Below, in pieces: positions 42,144 through 46,849 of a stretch of 60,948 nt of DNA. How positions within the stretch are numbered: position 1 is the stretch's first letter; every line of letters begins with the position of its first letter. The DNA is taken from NCBI GenBank assembly GCA_004292755.1, contig RDXE01000041.1, positions 1 through 60,948 on the forward strand, in the 5' to 3' direction. This DNA comes from Alphaproteobacteria bacterium. Its GTDB lineage: Bacteria > Pseudomonadota > Alphaproteobacteria > Elsterales > Elsteraceae. The notes under the pieces were generated by a model. That model saw nothing but the letters and a program-made list of their open reading frames with translations. It ran no database searches and had not been told where the DNA came from. The position numbers and the translations under genes are program-made.

Positions 42144-42758
42144 CTAGCTTGGAGGAATGTCCTGCTGGAACCGGGTGCGCAGGAAGTCTTCCAGTTGTTG
42201 ACGCAGCGCGTCGACATCTGCCCCCCGACCGAGCTCCCACGTTGTGTTCTGGTGGCCGCTGCGATAGGGCGGGCCAAGGGCGACCTCAGGCTCCTTCACC
42301 GGAGCCGGGGGCGGGGTAGGTGGTGGTGGTGGCAACGCAACGGCGCGGGCGTACCAGCGTGCGGCCTCGTCGGCGTCCTGCGGCACCCCTCGACCAGTGG
42401 CGTACAGCGCGGACAGCCGCAGCATCGCTTCGCGATCACCGCGGTCAGCCGCACGGCGGAACCAGCGCGCTGCTTCAGCGTCATTTGGCGAGGTGCCGTT
42501 CCAGCGCAACTCCAAACTGCTGAGGTAGAGATCACCCAATTCCATCATCGCGCGGGTGTTGCCCGCGCGCGCCAGCGGCAGGAACAAGGCGAACGCCTCG
42601 CCCGGCAAGCCAGAGCGCGCTGCCGCCTGACCTAAGCGCAACGCCTCACCAGGCGAGGTTGGCGCGCCAGTGGTTTGAGCGACTGAGGGCATCGCCATCA
42701 CACAGGCCGCAACAACGGCAGAGCCAATCCAGCGCCACATGATCCGATGTCTCGACAT
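42144..42758 (-). CDS. Exported Sel1-repeat protein
   Basis: A 204-residue protein with a signal peptide (GSAVVAACVMAMPSVAQ). At least two Sel1/TPR-like repeats follow: AMMELGDLYLSSLE...NDAEAARWFRRAADRGDREAML and RLSALYATGRGVPQDADEAARWYARAV. A run of prolines follows (PPPPPTPPPAP), then a short charged C-terminal helix (VDALRQQLEDFLRTRF). Sel1 proteins act as scaffolds, often in envelope stress or secretion; the partner is unknown. It is the last GC-rich gene before the AT-rich cassette. Confidence 0.8.
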   Translation of the reverse strand: MSRHRIMWRWIGSAVVAACVMAMPSVAQTTGAPTSPGEALRLGQAAARSGLPGEAFALFLPLARAGNTRAMMELGDLYLSSLELRWNGTSPNDAEAARWFRRAADRGDREAMLRLSALYATGRGVPQDADEAARWYARAVALPPPPPTPPPAPVKEPEVALGPPYRSGHQNTTWELGRGADVDALRQQLEDFLRTRFQQDIPPS

Positions 42759-42902
42759 GGTTAACCAAAGCTGAGCGTACCCGATTCGCAGCGCTGGTGG
42801 GAGTCTTTTGGCGGGTCAAGCTTGGGTAGAGGCGGATACAGTCTATGGGGCGTGGATTGCAATCGAAGTTAGTGCTAGTATGATCAACATGAGAGGTGAA
42901 TT

Positions 42903-43166
42903 GTGACCAGCCTTAAAGTAGCTGCGGTCGGCAAGAAGCGACTGCGACGCGTTGCAGCCGACCGTCCTGCGTCGAAGTTGACGAGTCTGACCGGCATCGA
43001 GGCGGGCCTATCGTCCAGCGTCGATACTGTCGATGCTTTTTCGACGACAACAAAATCAAAATCAACCAATAGGCGTCGTACAACAGACGATAAACCGGAT
43101 CCAGTTGTAGTGACAATGCTGAGACTCGCGGGTACGCTTGGAAAGGATTTCGATCTTGACTGTTGA
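42903..43166 (+). CDS. Putative antitoxin-like small protein upstream of a PIN protein
   Basis: An 87-residue protein that I do not recognise. The N-terminus is basic (KVAAVGKKRLRRVAADR), the middle is Ser/Thr/Lys-rich and probably disordered, and the end is a short hydrophobic helix (PVVVTMLRLAGTLGKDFDL). The start is GTG with GAGAGG seven bases upstream. It overlaps the downstream PIN gene, the usual order of antitoxin then toxin in VapBC-type loci. No known DNA-binding fold is recognised, so an antitoxin role is inference from position. Base composition is lower in GC than the flanks. Confidence 0.5.
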   Translation: MTSLKVAAVGKKRLRRVAADRPASKLTSLTGIEAGLSSSVDTVDAFSTTTKSKSTNRRRTTDDKPDPVVVTMLRLAGTLGKDFDLDC

Positions 43167-43797
43167 TCTTGAAGCGATGGTCAAATGGCGGAAGTATAAT
43201 GAGACCAAAGTAATAAATCACCGTCAGAAAAAGGACCTTAACGATGCAGAGCGCTGGATCAAAAAGCGGAATCGACCTGAATTTCTGGCCGATACAAATG
43301 TATATGGTCACATAGGAAAAAACGGCGAGCCAGAAGATGTTCTGATGCGTCTTCTAAAGAAGAATCCTTTACTCCACCACTGTTCGGTATGTCTTGGCGA
43401 GATTTCTCTAGGTATAGCGAATACGCGAGACGCGGCCAAAAGAATAGACTATCTCAAATACTATGCTACAATCTTCAAGGACATTCCAGAAGAAAGACTC
43501 TATACGCTGGATCAAGAAATCTGGATTAAAGCAGGCATTATTGCAGGAAAACTAGCGCGGAGACAGAATCTCCAAAAACATCAGCGTAAAGAACTGCTGA
43601 ATGACGCGCTAATATTTTTGACTGCGGCGAAGCACGGGATCCCTGTATTGACGTCTGATCGTAATGACTATGACCTCATCCAACAACTCCACCCGGACGG
43701 GGGTTTTGTCTTCTATGAGGTCACAGCCCAAAGCTTAGCGACGCCGGAGCAACAGCGCGCTCCAGCCTTTGTCGCGCAGGCGGGTGACCAGGGCTAG
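43156..43797 (+). CDS. PIN-domain ribonuclease-like protein (VapC-type candidate toxin), AT-rich
   Basis: A 213-residue protein. The PIN fold is seen from about residue 42: LADTNVYGHI with Asp46, CLGEISLGI with Glu82, LLNDALIFLTAAKHGIPVLTSDRNDYD with Asp150 and Asp168. These four acidic positions are the Mg2+-binding set of VapC-type RNases. A basic, Lys/Asn-rich N-terminal extension precedes it. Start is uncertain: TTG 43156 has AGG at the right distance; ATG 43177 also fits. The C-terminal 20 residues are read through the tail of prmA on the other strand (overlap of 63 bp). Low GC and rare-codon use mark recent acquisition. Confidence 0.7.
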   Translation: MTVDLEAMVKWRKYNETKVINHRQKKDLNDAERWIKKRNRPEFLADTNVYGHIGKNGEPEDVLMRLLKKNPLLHHCSVCLGEISLGIANTRDAAKRIDYLKYYATIFKDIPEERLYTLDQEIWIKAGIIAGKLARRQNLQKHQRKELLNDALIFLTAAKHGIPVLTSDRNDYDLIQQLHPDGGFVFYEVTAQSLATPEQQRAPAFVAQAGDQG

Positions 43798-44592
43798 GCG
43801 CTGGGCGCGGTGGGCAGACAGCACTTGGGCTTCTTGCTCCACCAACAGGCCAGACAAGACCGCATAGCCCCCGCGCGCCAGATGGCGCCGCAGGGCAGGG
43901 GCAAGGCGCATCAATGGGCGGGCGAGGATGTTTGCTGCCACCACATCATAGGGGCGGCGGCGGGCGATGGCGCGGTGGCGGTAGCCTGCCGCATTCACAA
44001 TGGTCAGGCGTGCGGCTTCGGCGTTGATCCGTGCGTTCTCCCGCGCGACGCGAACCGATTCCGGGTCGAGATCACCAGCCACCACCGGCTTGCGCCACAG
44101 GCGCGCCATGGCCAGCGCCAGCACGCCCGACCCGCAGCCGATGTCGAGCGGACGGCGACAGCGCTTGCGCTTGGCAATGCGCTCCAGCAGCAGCAGGCAG
44201 CCGCGGGTGGTGGCGTGCTCGCCAGAGCCGAACGCGGTTGCGGCATCGATGGTCAACACAATGCGGCTTGGTGGCGGCGGGCTGTCAATGTGGCTGCCGC
44301 GCAGCTCAAACCGACCAAAGCGCTGGGCCGGGAAATCGCGCCGGTTCTCACTCAGCCAGTCAACGGTGGGCAAGGGGACGACGGTAAAGTGCGGCGGGCG
44401 TGCAGCGACAGTGGCAAGGGCGGCTTCCAGGTCGGCAGGGTCGGGCGCACCGTCCAGATAGGCTTCCAGCCGCCAGGACCCCCCGGGCACGATCTCAAAC
44501 GCCGCGATGGCAACGCTGAACGGGTCAAGCGCTGCGCCGAACGGTTCAACATCGGCGCGCGGACACACCAGTTCCAGCTTCCAGCCACTCAT
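43735..44592 (-). CDS. prmA: Ribosomal protein L11 methyltransferase
   Basis: A 285-residue SAM-dependent methyltransferase. The N-terminal substrate-recognition domain (about 1-95) ends with WLSENRRDFPAQRFGRFELRG. The catalytic domain has TAFGSGEHATTRGCLLLLE, motif I DIGCGSGVLALAMA, DLDPESVRVARENARIN and motif IV VVAANILARPLM (NxL-type). It trimethylates lysines of ribosomal protein L11. It runs downstream of the UvrD-type helicase gene. Its 3' end is overlapped by the PIN gene from the opposite strand. Confidence 0.94.
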   Translation of the reverse strand: MSGWKLELVCPRADVEPFGAALDPFSVAIAAFEIVPGGSWRLEAYLDGAPDPADLEAALATVAARPPHFTVVPLPTVDWLSENRRDFPAQRFGRFELRGSHIDSPPPPSRIVLTIDAATAFGSGEHATTRGCLLLLERIAKRKRCRRPLDIGCGSGVLALAMARLWRKPVVAGDLDPESVRVARENARINAEAARLTIVNAAGYRHRAIARRRPYDVVAANILARPLMRLAPALRRHLARGGYAVLSGLLVEQEAQVLSAHRAQRLALVTRLRDKGWSALLLRRR

Positions 44593-44629: not shown

Positions 44630-46849
44630 TTACGCAACACTGACGAACCCAGCCATCACTTTCTTCACGCCCGCTTGATCGAAGGCGACCTCCAGCTTGT
44701 CACCCTCGACGGCGCGCACCAGACCATACCCGAACTTCTGGTGAAACACGCGGGTACCAACACTGACCGCTGGGGACGGGCGATGCTCGGTCTCGATCCG
44801 CGTGGCGCGGGCGTCGATGATTGGCGCGCGCGGTCGCGGGGCAGACCAGCCACTGGTCCAGCCGCCCGTCCAGCCACCACCCCCGCCGCCTGACTGGGAG
44901 AACTGGTTCAGACCGGCAATCGCCTCGCGCTCCACATGGTCCGCGGGCAATTCCTCCAGAAAGCGCGACGGCAGTGCCGATTGCCATTGGCCATGGATGC
45001 GCCGGTTGCCGGCATGGGTGATGATGGCGCGAATCCGTGCTCGGGTCAGGCCGACATAGGCCAGCCGTCGCTCTTCCTCCAACCCCTTCAGGCCGGTCTC
45101 ATCCATGCTGCGTTGAGAGGGGAACAACCCCTCCTCCCACCCAGGCAGGAACACGGTGTCGAACTCCAGCCCTTTGGCGGCATGGAGGGTCATCACCGTT
45201 ACCTGTGCGGTCTCCCCATCCTCGGCGCGCTCAGTGACCAGGGCCACGTGATCAAGGAAGGCTTCCAGCGTTTCGAATTCTTCCAGGGCGCGGACCAGTT
45301 CTTTCAGGTTTTCCAGCCGCCCCGGTGCTTCGGGTGCCTTATCGGCCTGCAGCATGCCCGTGTAGCCGCATTCATCCAGCAAGGTCTCGGCCAGTTCATC
45401 GGGCGGCAGACCATCGGCCATCGCCCGCCAGCGGGCCAAATCCTCTAGAAACGCGGCCAGTGTTTTGCGCGCTGCCGCTTTCAACTCATCGGTACCGATC
45501 AGCCGGGCGGCAGCGGCCGTGAGGGACAGCCCAAGCCCGCGGGCGGCGATGGTAAGGGCGCGCAGACTGGTGTCGCCGAAGCCGCGCTTCGGGGTGTTGA
45601 TGATGCGCTCGAACGCCAGATCATCATCTGGTTGGCGCACCAGGCGCAGATAGGCTAGGGCGTCGCGGATTTCCTGACGCTCATAGAAGCGCGGTCCGCC
45701 GATCACCCGGTAGGGCAGGCCCAGCGTGATGAAGCGTTCTTCAAACTCGCGGGTTTGAAAGCCCGCGCGCACCAGCACGGCCATGGTGTCGAGAGAGGCG
45801 CCGTGCCGTTGCAGGGCTTCGATCTCCTCCCCGATGCGGCGGGCTTCCTCTTCTCCGTCCCAAACACCGATCAGCCGCACGCGGTCGCCCGCTTCAGCTG
45901 CCGTCCATAGGGTTTTGCCCAGGCGCTCGCGGTTGTGATCAATCAAATGGCTGGCGGCGGCCAGGATATTTCCAGTGGAGCGATAGTTCTGTTCCAGTCG
46001 AATGATCTCAGCGCCTGGAAAATCCTGTTCAAACTTCAAGATGTTCCCAATCTCCGCCCCGCGCCAGCCGTAGATAGATTGATCCTCATCGCCCACCACG
46101 CACAGATTGCGCCGGGATTGTGCCAGCAGGCGCAGCCACAAGTATTGAGCGACGTTGGTATCTTGATATTCATCGACCATTATATACTTGAAGCGCTCCT
46201 GCCAGGAGGCCAGCACATCGCTGTGGGTTTGGAATATCTGGATCAAGTGGCAGAGCAGATCGCCGAAGTCACAGGCATTCAAGGTGATCAGGCGCTGCTG
46301 ATACTGGGCATAAAGGCCTGCAAGCTTGCCACCAGCCAGCTGTGCCGCCCCATCGCTGGCGGCTTGGGTGGGGGTGATCGCGCGATCCTTCCAGCGCTCA
46401 ATCGCCGCCAACAATTGGCGGGCGGGCCAGCGCTTGTCATCAATGCCTTCGGCTTGCAGGATCTGCTTTAGCAGGCGCAGTTGGTCATCGGCATCCAGGA
46501 TGGTGAAGTTGGACTTCAGGCCCACCAACTCGGCGTGGCGGCGCAGCATGCGTGCTGCGATGGCGTGGAACGTGCCAAGCCAAAAATCCTCCGCCATCGC
46601 GCCGATCAGCTGGCCCACCCGGTGGCGCATCTCGCGCGCGGCCTTGTTCGTGAAGGTGACGGCGAGCACCTGGCTAGGCCACGCTTGGCGACTGGCGACC
46701 AGATGGGCAAGGCGCGTGGTCAACACACGGGTCTTGCCGGTTCCCGCCCCGGACAGCACCAGCACAGGGCCATCCAAGGTTTCGACCGCCCGACGCTGGG
46801 CAGGGTTCAAGCCGGTGAGATAGCCAGGAGGGGACTGGAGCGCGGTCAT
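44630..46849 (-). CDS. UvrD/PcrA-type 3'-5' DNA helicase
   Basis: A 739-residue SF1 helicase. Motif I GAGTGKT lies at 34-40; motif Ia is VTFTNKAAREM; motif II is VDEYQDTN; motif III is VVGDEDQSIYGWRGA; motif IV is LEQNYRST; and motifs V/VI are VMTLHAAKGLEFD and RRLAYVGLTRAR. The C-terminal tail is Gly/Trp-rich followed by a Tudor-like segment (VFHQKFGYGLVRAVEGDKLEVAF) typical of PcrA/UvrD. It acts in nucleotide excision and mismatch repair and removes RecA filaments. Its 5' end diverges from the RTX gene by 153 bp, and prmA follows it. Confidence 0.95.
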   Translation of the reverse strand: MTALQSPPGYLTGLNPAQRRAVETLDGPVLVLSGAGTGKTRVLTTRLAHLVASRQAWPSQVLAVTFTNKAAREMRHRVGQLIGAMAEDFWLGTFHAIAARMLRRHAELVGLKSNFTILDADDQLRLLKQILQAEGIDDKRWPARQLLAAIERWKDRAITPTQAASDGAAQLAGGKLAGLYAQYQQRLITLNACDFGDLLCHLIQIFQTHSDVLASWQERFKYIMVDEYQDTNVAQYLWLRLLAQSRRNLCVVGDEDQSIYGWRGAEIGNILKFEQDFPGAEIIRLEQNYRSTGNILAAASHLIDHNRERLGKTLWTAAEAGDRVRLIGVWDGEEEARRIGEEIEALQRHGASLDTMAVLVRAGFQTREFEERFITLGLPYRVIGGPRFYERQEIRDALAYLRLVRQPDDDLAFERIINTPKRGFGDTSLRALTIAARGLGLSLTAAAARLIGTDELKAAARKTLAAFLEDLARWRAMADGLPPDELAETLLDECGYTGMLQADKAPEAPGRLENLKELVRALEEFETLEAFLDHVALVTERAEDGETAQVTVMTLHAAKGLEFDTVFLPGWEEGLFPSQRSMDETGLKGLEEERRLAYVGLTRARIRAIITHAGNRRIHGQWQSALPSRFLEELPADHVEREAIAGLNQFSQSGGGGGGWTGGWTSGWSAPRPRAPIIDARATRIETEHRPSPAVSVGTRVFHQKFGYGLVRAVEGDKLEVAFDQAGVKKVMAGFVSVA

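Follow-up and report, generated by a model that had tools for sequence, protein, structure and literature searches.

A VapBC-like gene pair with an apparently tail-only antitoxin in an AT-rich cassette next to prmA

Introduction

In VapBC complexes, the C-termini of the antitoxins bind to the toxins and inhibit them, and the usual description of type II antitoxins is that they repress their own operons. PMC3834315 defines VapBC systems by the combination of a PIN toxin with a DNA-binding antitoxin, and DNA-binding domains of the RHH or AbrB type are present in the FitA and VapB antitoxins reviewed in PMC4803016. FitAB and VapBC complexes of known structure (2h1c, 2bsq, 6a7v, 3tnd) share the PIN toxin fold and the small upstream antitoxin with the gene pair described here, but their toxins consist of about 130-140 residues and lack the N-terminal extension of 40 residues present in our case.

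The pair is located in a stretch of 60,948 nucleotides, which was analysed as a whole and is called the window in the following. A first-pass annotation of this sequence had recognized an AT-rich cassette coding for a PIN protein and an overlapping upstream protein of 87 residues, and had proposed that it may be a toxin-antitoxin system of a new type or a defence fragment. Both frames were recovered (42,903-43,166 for the upstream protein, with the PIN frame ending at 43,797), together with an overlap of 11 nt between them.

Results

The cassette extends approximately from position 42,857 to 43,797 and exceeds the rest of the window in AT content. The GC content stays at 0.43-0.48 between 42,850 and 43,735 and reaches its minimum of 0.43 at 43,200-43,600, compared to about 0.68 in the flanks on either side, which agrees with the lower GC content noted previously. 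With a value of 0.476, the 880-bp cassette belongs to the three lowest of 1,202 stretches of that size (mean GC of the window, 0.642), and the GC3 value of the toxin gene is 0.45 vs. 0.77 for the adjoining prmA gene. A local GC dip to 0.53 is also seen at 45,900-46,300 of the window, within a gene for a UvrD-like helicase. The cassette is flanked by two genes on the minus strand, namely a gene for a Sel1-repeat protein (42,144-42,758) and prmA, coding for ribosomal protein L11 methyltransferase (43,735-44,592), whose 3' end looks intact. As annotated before, the toxin frame on the plus strand enters the 3' end of prmA, which terminates at 43,735, by 63 bases. The previous claim of an exact insertion point was not borne out, however: the left border is gradual, with a GC content of 0.56 from 42,750 onward, the cassette edges show no border repeats or target-site duplications of more than 9 bases, and the comparison with related genomes that had been suggested as a check did not yield an empty site.

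This comparison covered the neighborhoods of both the Sel1 gene and prmA. Among the genomes of the family, a close Sel1 homologue only occurs in the congeneric genome G001, where it lies beside different genes; on contigs C191 and C217 (loci L132 and L133) it adjoins a CheR-like gene instead of prmA, which probably makes the junction between prmA and Sel1 a site of rearrangement. The contig carrying prmA in G001 stops at the 3' end of this gene, and the sequence past the prmA stop codon differs in every relative in which it is readable. With a single Sel1 homologue in another neighborhood and these divergent sequences behind prmA, a clean empty site could not be drawn from the relatives. The PIN gene itself was not found in any of the family's eight other genomes and is present as a single copy in this genome, which contains neither a second toxin gene nor an RHH-like partner (see below) elsewhere, be it solitary or as part of a second pair. 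Relatives of the operon are scattered over Rhizobiales, Acetobacteraceae, Sphingomonadaceae, Acidobacteria, and gammaproteobacterial MAGs and are often located on conjugative plasmids, which fits with horizontal transfer, and the cassette was probably acquired by this route. The toxin genes of the relatives examined have GC contents of 0.51-0.70, and none of them is as AT-rich as the one in the window. No match indicating a phage origin was obtained in a phage collection or in viral contigs, and the toxin shows a weak match to a PHROG of unknown function (5e-5).

The toxin gene (43,156-43,797, plus strand) codes for a protein of 213 amino acids, which was assigned a VapC/FitB-like PIN fold on the basis of Pfam, alignment, AlphaFold2, and Foldseek. 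A longer frame of 219 codons from 43,138 was rejected in favor of the TTG codon at 43,156, because the 11-nt overlap resulting from the latter matches that of the relatives and makes the upstream start unlikely. The match to the Pfam PIN family PF01850 (E ~1e-4, 23.3 bits) is just under the cut-off of 23.6 bits, and 30 of the 35 aligned homologues show a PIN match at E <= 0.1. All four residues of the acidic set reported initially (Asp46, Glu82, Asp150, and Asp168) are indeed present; the aligned family shows no variation at Asp46, Glu82, Asp150, and Asp173, and position 168 is occupied by Asn in most near relatives. The AlphaFold2 model (pLDDT 86) gives its best Foldseek matches with FitB, VapC21, and VapBC complexes. 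As judged from sequence and model, the protein is a PIN-domain RNase of the VapC/FitB fold, with its RNase activity predicted from this assignment. A family-specific N-terminal extension of about 40 residues with the consensus DLxAxLRRxKPEK precedes the PIN core (43,156-43,275, plus strand, from the family alignment). At the other end, the last 20 codons and the stop codon (43,735-43,797, plus strand) are antisense to the 3' end of prmA. The toxins of the near clade end at the final strand FIHY/FVHL, and the window toxin is longer by about 25 residues, with pLDDT values of about 45-64 over the C-terminus antisense to prmA. In view of this difference in length to the nearest relatives, the earlier suggestion of a lost or displaced native stop codon is plausible; the loss probably occurred as the cassette became joined to prmA, leaving a run-on as C-terminus. 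The toxin is placed on a long branch (1.6) and has a shifted amino acid make-up; the branch length could reflect relaxed constraint.

The antitoxin gene (42,903-43,166, plus strand) codes for 87 amino acids, starts with GTG, ends with TGA at 43,164-43,166, and is preceded by a Shine-Dalgarno-like sequence, AGAGGTG (42,892-42,898, plus strand). The N-terminal part of the protein is basic and rich in Ser, Thr, Lys, and Arg. The protein matches no passing family in Pfam, NCBIfam, or PADLOC, and full-length homologues were found neither in the plasmids nor in 385 genomes, the latter giving low-complexity matches at chance level. The statement of the first-pass annotation that it contains no recognized antitoxin fold is correct in this respect, yet its last 23 residues mark it as belonging to a known kind of pair. 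This conserved tail, PDPVVVTMLRLAGTLGKDFDLDC (43,095-43,163, plus strand), which presumably binds the toxin, scores +26.4 bits against a tail model of the near clade and ranks first of the 1,304 C-termini in the window, the next one scoring -1.6. Moreover, the toxin start codon lies inside the 3' end of the antitoxin gene in an overlap of 11 nt, TTGACTGTTGA (43,156-43,166, plus strand), which is the same in relatives. The window pair carries both marks of the sub-family, the 11-nt overlap at a TTG codon and the conserved C-terminal tail, and as judged from the tail score and the retained overlap the 87-residue protein is the cognate antitoxin of a VapC-like family.

Relatives of the pair were collected from plasmid records, a scan of genome contigs, and further genome searches, yielding 109 loci with some near-duplicates among them. 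They are annotated as a VapC-family toxin with a small upstream gene. An upstream partner with an RHH-like segment (TEHxSFRAPxALxEAAKRESG...TELGxLALxxLA) and the conserved C-terminal tail is present in 105 of the 109; in 92 of these 105, toxin start and antitoxin stop share an overlap of exactly 11 nt, and the start codon is TTG in 90 of the 92. The RHH assignment in the relatives is derived from this sequence pattern, a sub-threshold match to PF09957, the predicted helix pattern, and matching operators. The best relevant family match of the relatives' antitoxin is indeed PF09957 (VapB_antitoxin) at E 0.01, below the cut-off, and its predicted fold gave no match in the PDB with Foldseek and VIA-align. 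Members such as L015, L052, L072, L069, and L080 and their relatives, which have the 11-nt TTG overlap, are covered by no passing Pfam or NCBIfam model, although rhizobia, Acidobacteria, and gammaproteobacterial MAGs commonly contain this family, which shows clade-specific inverted-repeat operators.

The window antitoxin is, at the sequence level, devoid of this segment. No RHH-like segment was detected in any plus-strand frame around its gene. A frameshifted RHH remnant was also considered and rejected: none is present on the plus strand, and one weak antisense match (10.6 bits) was judged to be due to chance. Partners left out of the RHH-like profile, even as whole clades, score 64-108 bits, and the window protein 9-11 bits, through its tail only. 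A similar basic leader is present in the relatives besides the RHH-like segment.

A putative promoter of the sigma-70 type (TTGCAA, 16-nt spacer, TATGAT; 42,857-42,884, plus strand) was assigned from a consensus match, in a region where 3 promoter-like sites were found vs. 1.1 expected. In the near clade, the repeat TGTGTG...CACACA or a one-base variant occurs upstream of 14 of the 16 RHH-bearing loci, and repeats of this type are present in two more Acetobacteraceae. The inverted repeats at the promoters of the relatives differ by clade (TTGTGTGACA...TGCACACAA, GTTGAAC...GTTCAAC, and TGTAGCACA...TGTGCTACA), the latter two belonging to clades other than the near one; these clade-specific repeats are taken as the evidence, as a generic inverted-repeat scan is too noisy for single loci. 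None of the family operator repeats is found upstream of the window pair, which lacks the near-clade TTGTGTG...CACACAA, or of a similar pair from Roseomonas, and the window promoter shows no significant inverted repeat around it (best score 4, a value that all shuffles attained as well). The Methylobacterium loci L056 and L058 have kept the RHH-like segment and lack the clade operator, indicating that segment and operator are not always lost together; the partner in L058 carries Asp at a position where Arg is nearly invariant. In L175, the RHH-like segment is degenerate and the overlap altered, which makes it a possible intermediate toward a reduced antitoxin. Together with the operator-less Methylobacterium loci, it suggests that the decay may proceed stepwise.

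Discussion

Viewed against the canonical VapBC organization, the window pair has a PIN toxin with the conserved acidic residues and a small antitoxin gene directly upstream of and overlapping with the toxin gene, but neither a recognizable DNA-binding domain in the antitoxin, which belongs to no passing Pfam or NCBIfam family, nor an operator repeat at the promoter. Following the definition in PMC3834315, it is filed as a variant working like VapBC which, as far as the sequence can show, deviates in a defining canonical feature. The antitoxin would consist of a flexible basic N-terminal part joined to the C-terminal tail that follows the RHH-like segment in relatives, and this tail presumably neutralizes the toxin by wrapping around it and obstructing the active site. 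With the RHH-like segment and the operator repeat both gone, repression of the promoter by the pair itself has most likely been lost. The ratio of the two proteins would then hang on translational coupling: because the toxin start is a weak TTG codon embedded in the end of the antitoxin gene, the toxin would be made less often than the antitoxin. We favor, with somewhat better than even confidence, the reading of the locus as a horizontally acquired VapBC-like operon with a tail-only antitoxin, lost autoregulation, and dosage set via translational coupling at the weak TTG. That a two-gene PIN module has shed its autoregulation to the point of keeping only the toxin-binding tail, losing the operator, and adjusting dosage by TTG-coupled translation exclusively is more tentative, and we regard it as a real possibility that falls a little short of probable.

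An autoregulated VapBC system in the canonical sense would require that the basic N-terminal 60 residues form an unrecognized DNA-binding domain, which replaces the RHH-like segment and recognizes a different operator. This part of the protein could bind DNA, as it is rich in Lys and Arg, the domain libraries would miss short or unusual domains, and aRelB may recognize DNA via basic N-terminal residues (PMC4803016). Nevertheless, its composition is of the low-complexity Ser/Thr/Lys type, a similar basic leader accompanies the RHH-like segment in relatives, and the best inverted repeat at the promoter does not exceed that of shuffled sequences, which renders a replacement domain rather unlikely. 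We consider it quite improbable that the locus is a decaying remnant in which the middle of the antitoxin and the native toxin stop were lost and which no longer constitutes a working pair. The long branch and shifted amino acid make-up of the toxin, its C-terminus running on into prmA, the occurrence in a single genome, and the loss of operator and RHH-like segment would all be expected from such decay, but the 213-codon frame is intact with its catalytic residues, the tail, the 11-nt TTG overlap, the Shine-Dalgarno-like site, and the promoter-like match are preserved, and the same reduced form is kept by Roseomonas mucosa plasmids, with toxin matches in several records.

The interpretation offered initially, a new toxin-antitoxin type or a piece of a defence system, was based on features that persist, since the 87-residue protein lacks full-length relatives and the composition of the cassette looks foreign. 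It is largely refuted by the homologous operons and appears highly improbable to us: the tail and the overlap tie the pair to a VapC-like family, and the cassette matches no defence profile of PADLOC-DB and no entry of the phage collection. What stands is the toxin-antitoxin assignment as such, backed by the VapC annotations of the relatives and the conserved 11-nt overlap, in the form of a VapBC-like module and not of a new type.

If the module has indeed shed its autoregulation, the full state with RHH-like segment and operator and the possible intermediates represented by L175 and the Methylobacterium loci form a natural series of the decay of an antitoxin DNA-binding domain. Homologous modules that differ in the presence of the segment and of the matching operator coexist, providing a directly testable system, and it becomes testable whether the toxin can be kept safe solely by a weak, overlapping TTG start.

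Among the related pairs, that of the Mesorhizobium sp. L-2-11 plasmid MesoLjLa3 (L015), annotated as a VapC-family toxin and a hypothetical protein, resembles the window pair in gene order, partner tail, and the 11-nt TTG overlap, and its toxin shows 45% identity across 86% of the query. In contrast to the window, its partner of 104 amino acids contains the RHH-like segment, and its promoter carries TTGTGTG...CACACAA. The pair on Roseomonas mucosa plasmids (L018, L068) is the only other case of double loss found: its 60-residue partner is made up of basic leader and tail only, and both the RHH-like segment and the family operator are missing; unlike in the window, its toxin (35-37% identical) starts with GTG further downstream, so that the overlap is lost. 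A common origin of the window and Roseomonas pairs is neither supported nor rejected (AU p 0.47). Outside the family, vapBC-1 of nontypeable Haemophilus influenzae contains an antitoxin reported not to bind DNA alone, but differs from the window pair in that VapC-1 binds DNA and VapB-1 supplies specificity (PMC4803016). The closest precedent for an antitoxin without a DNA-binding domain that we found in the open-licence literature is PaaA2 of the PaaR2-PaaA2-ParE2 system from E. coli O157:H7 (PMC8630535), whose antitoxin likewise lacks a recognizable DNA-binding domain, but which combines it with a ParE toxin and a separate regulator encoded by paaR2, whereas the window pair consists of a PIN toxin and its antitoxin with no regulator gene adjoining them.
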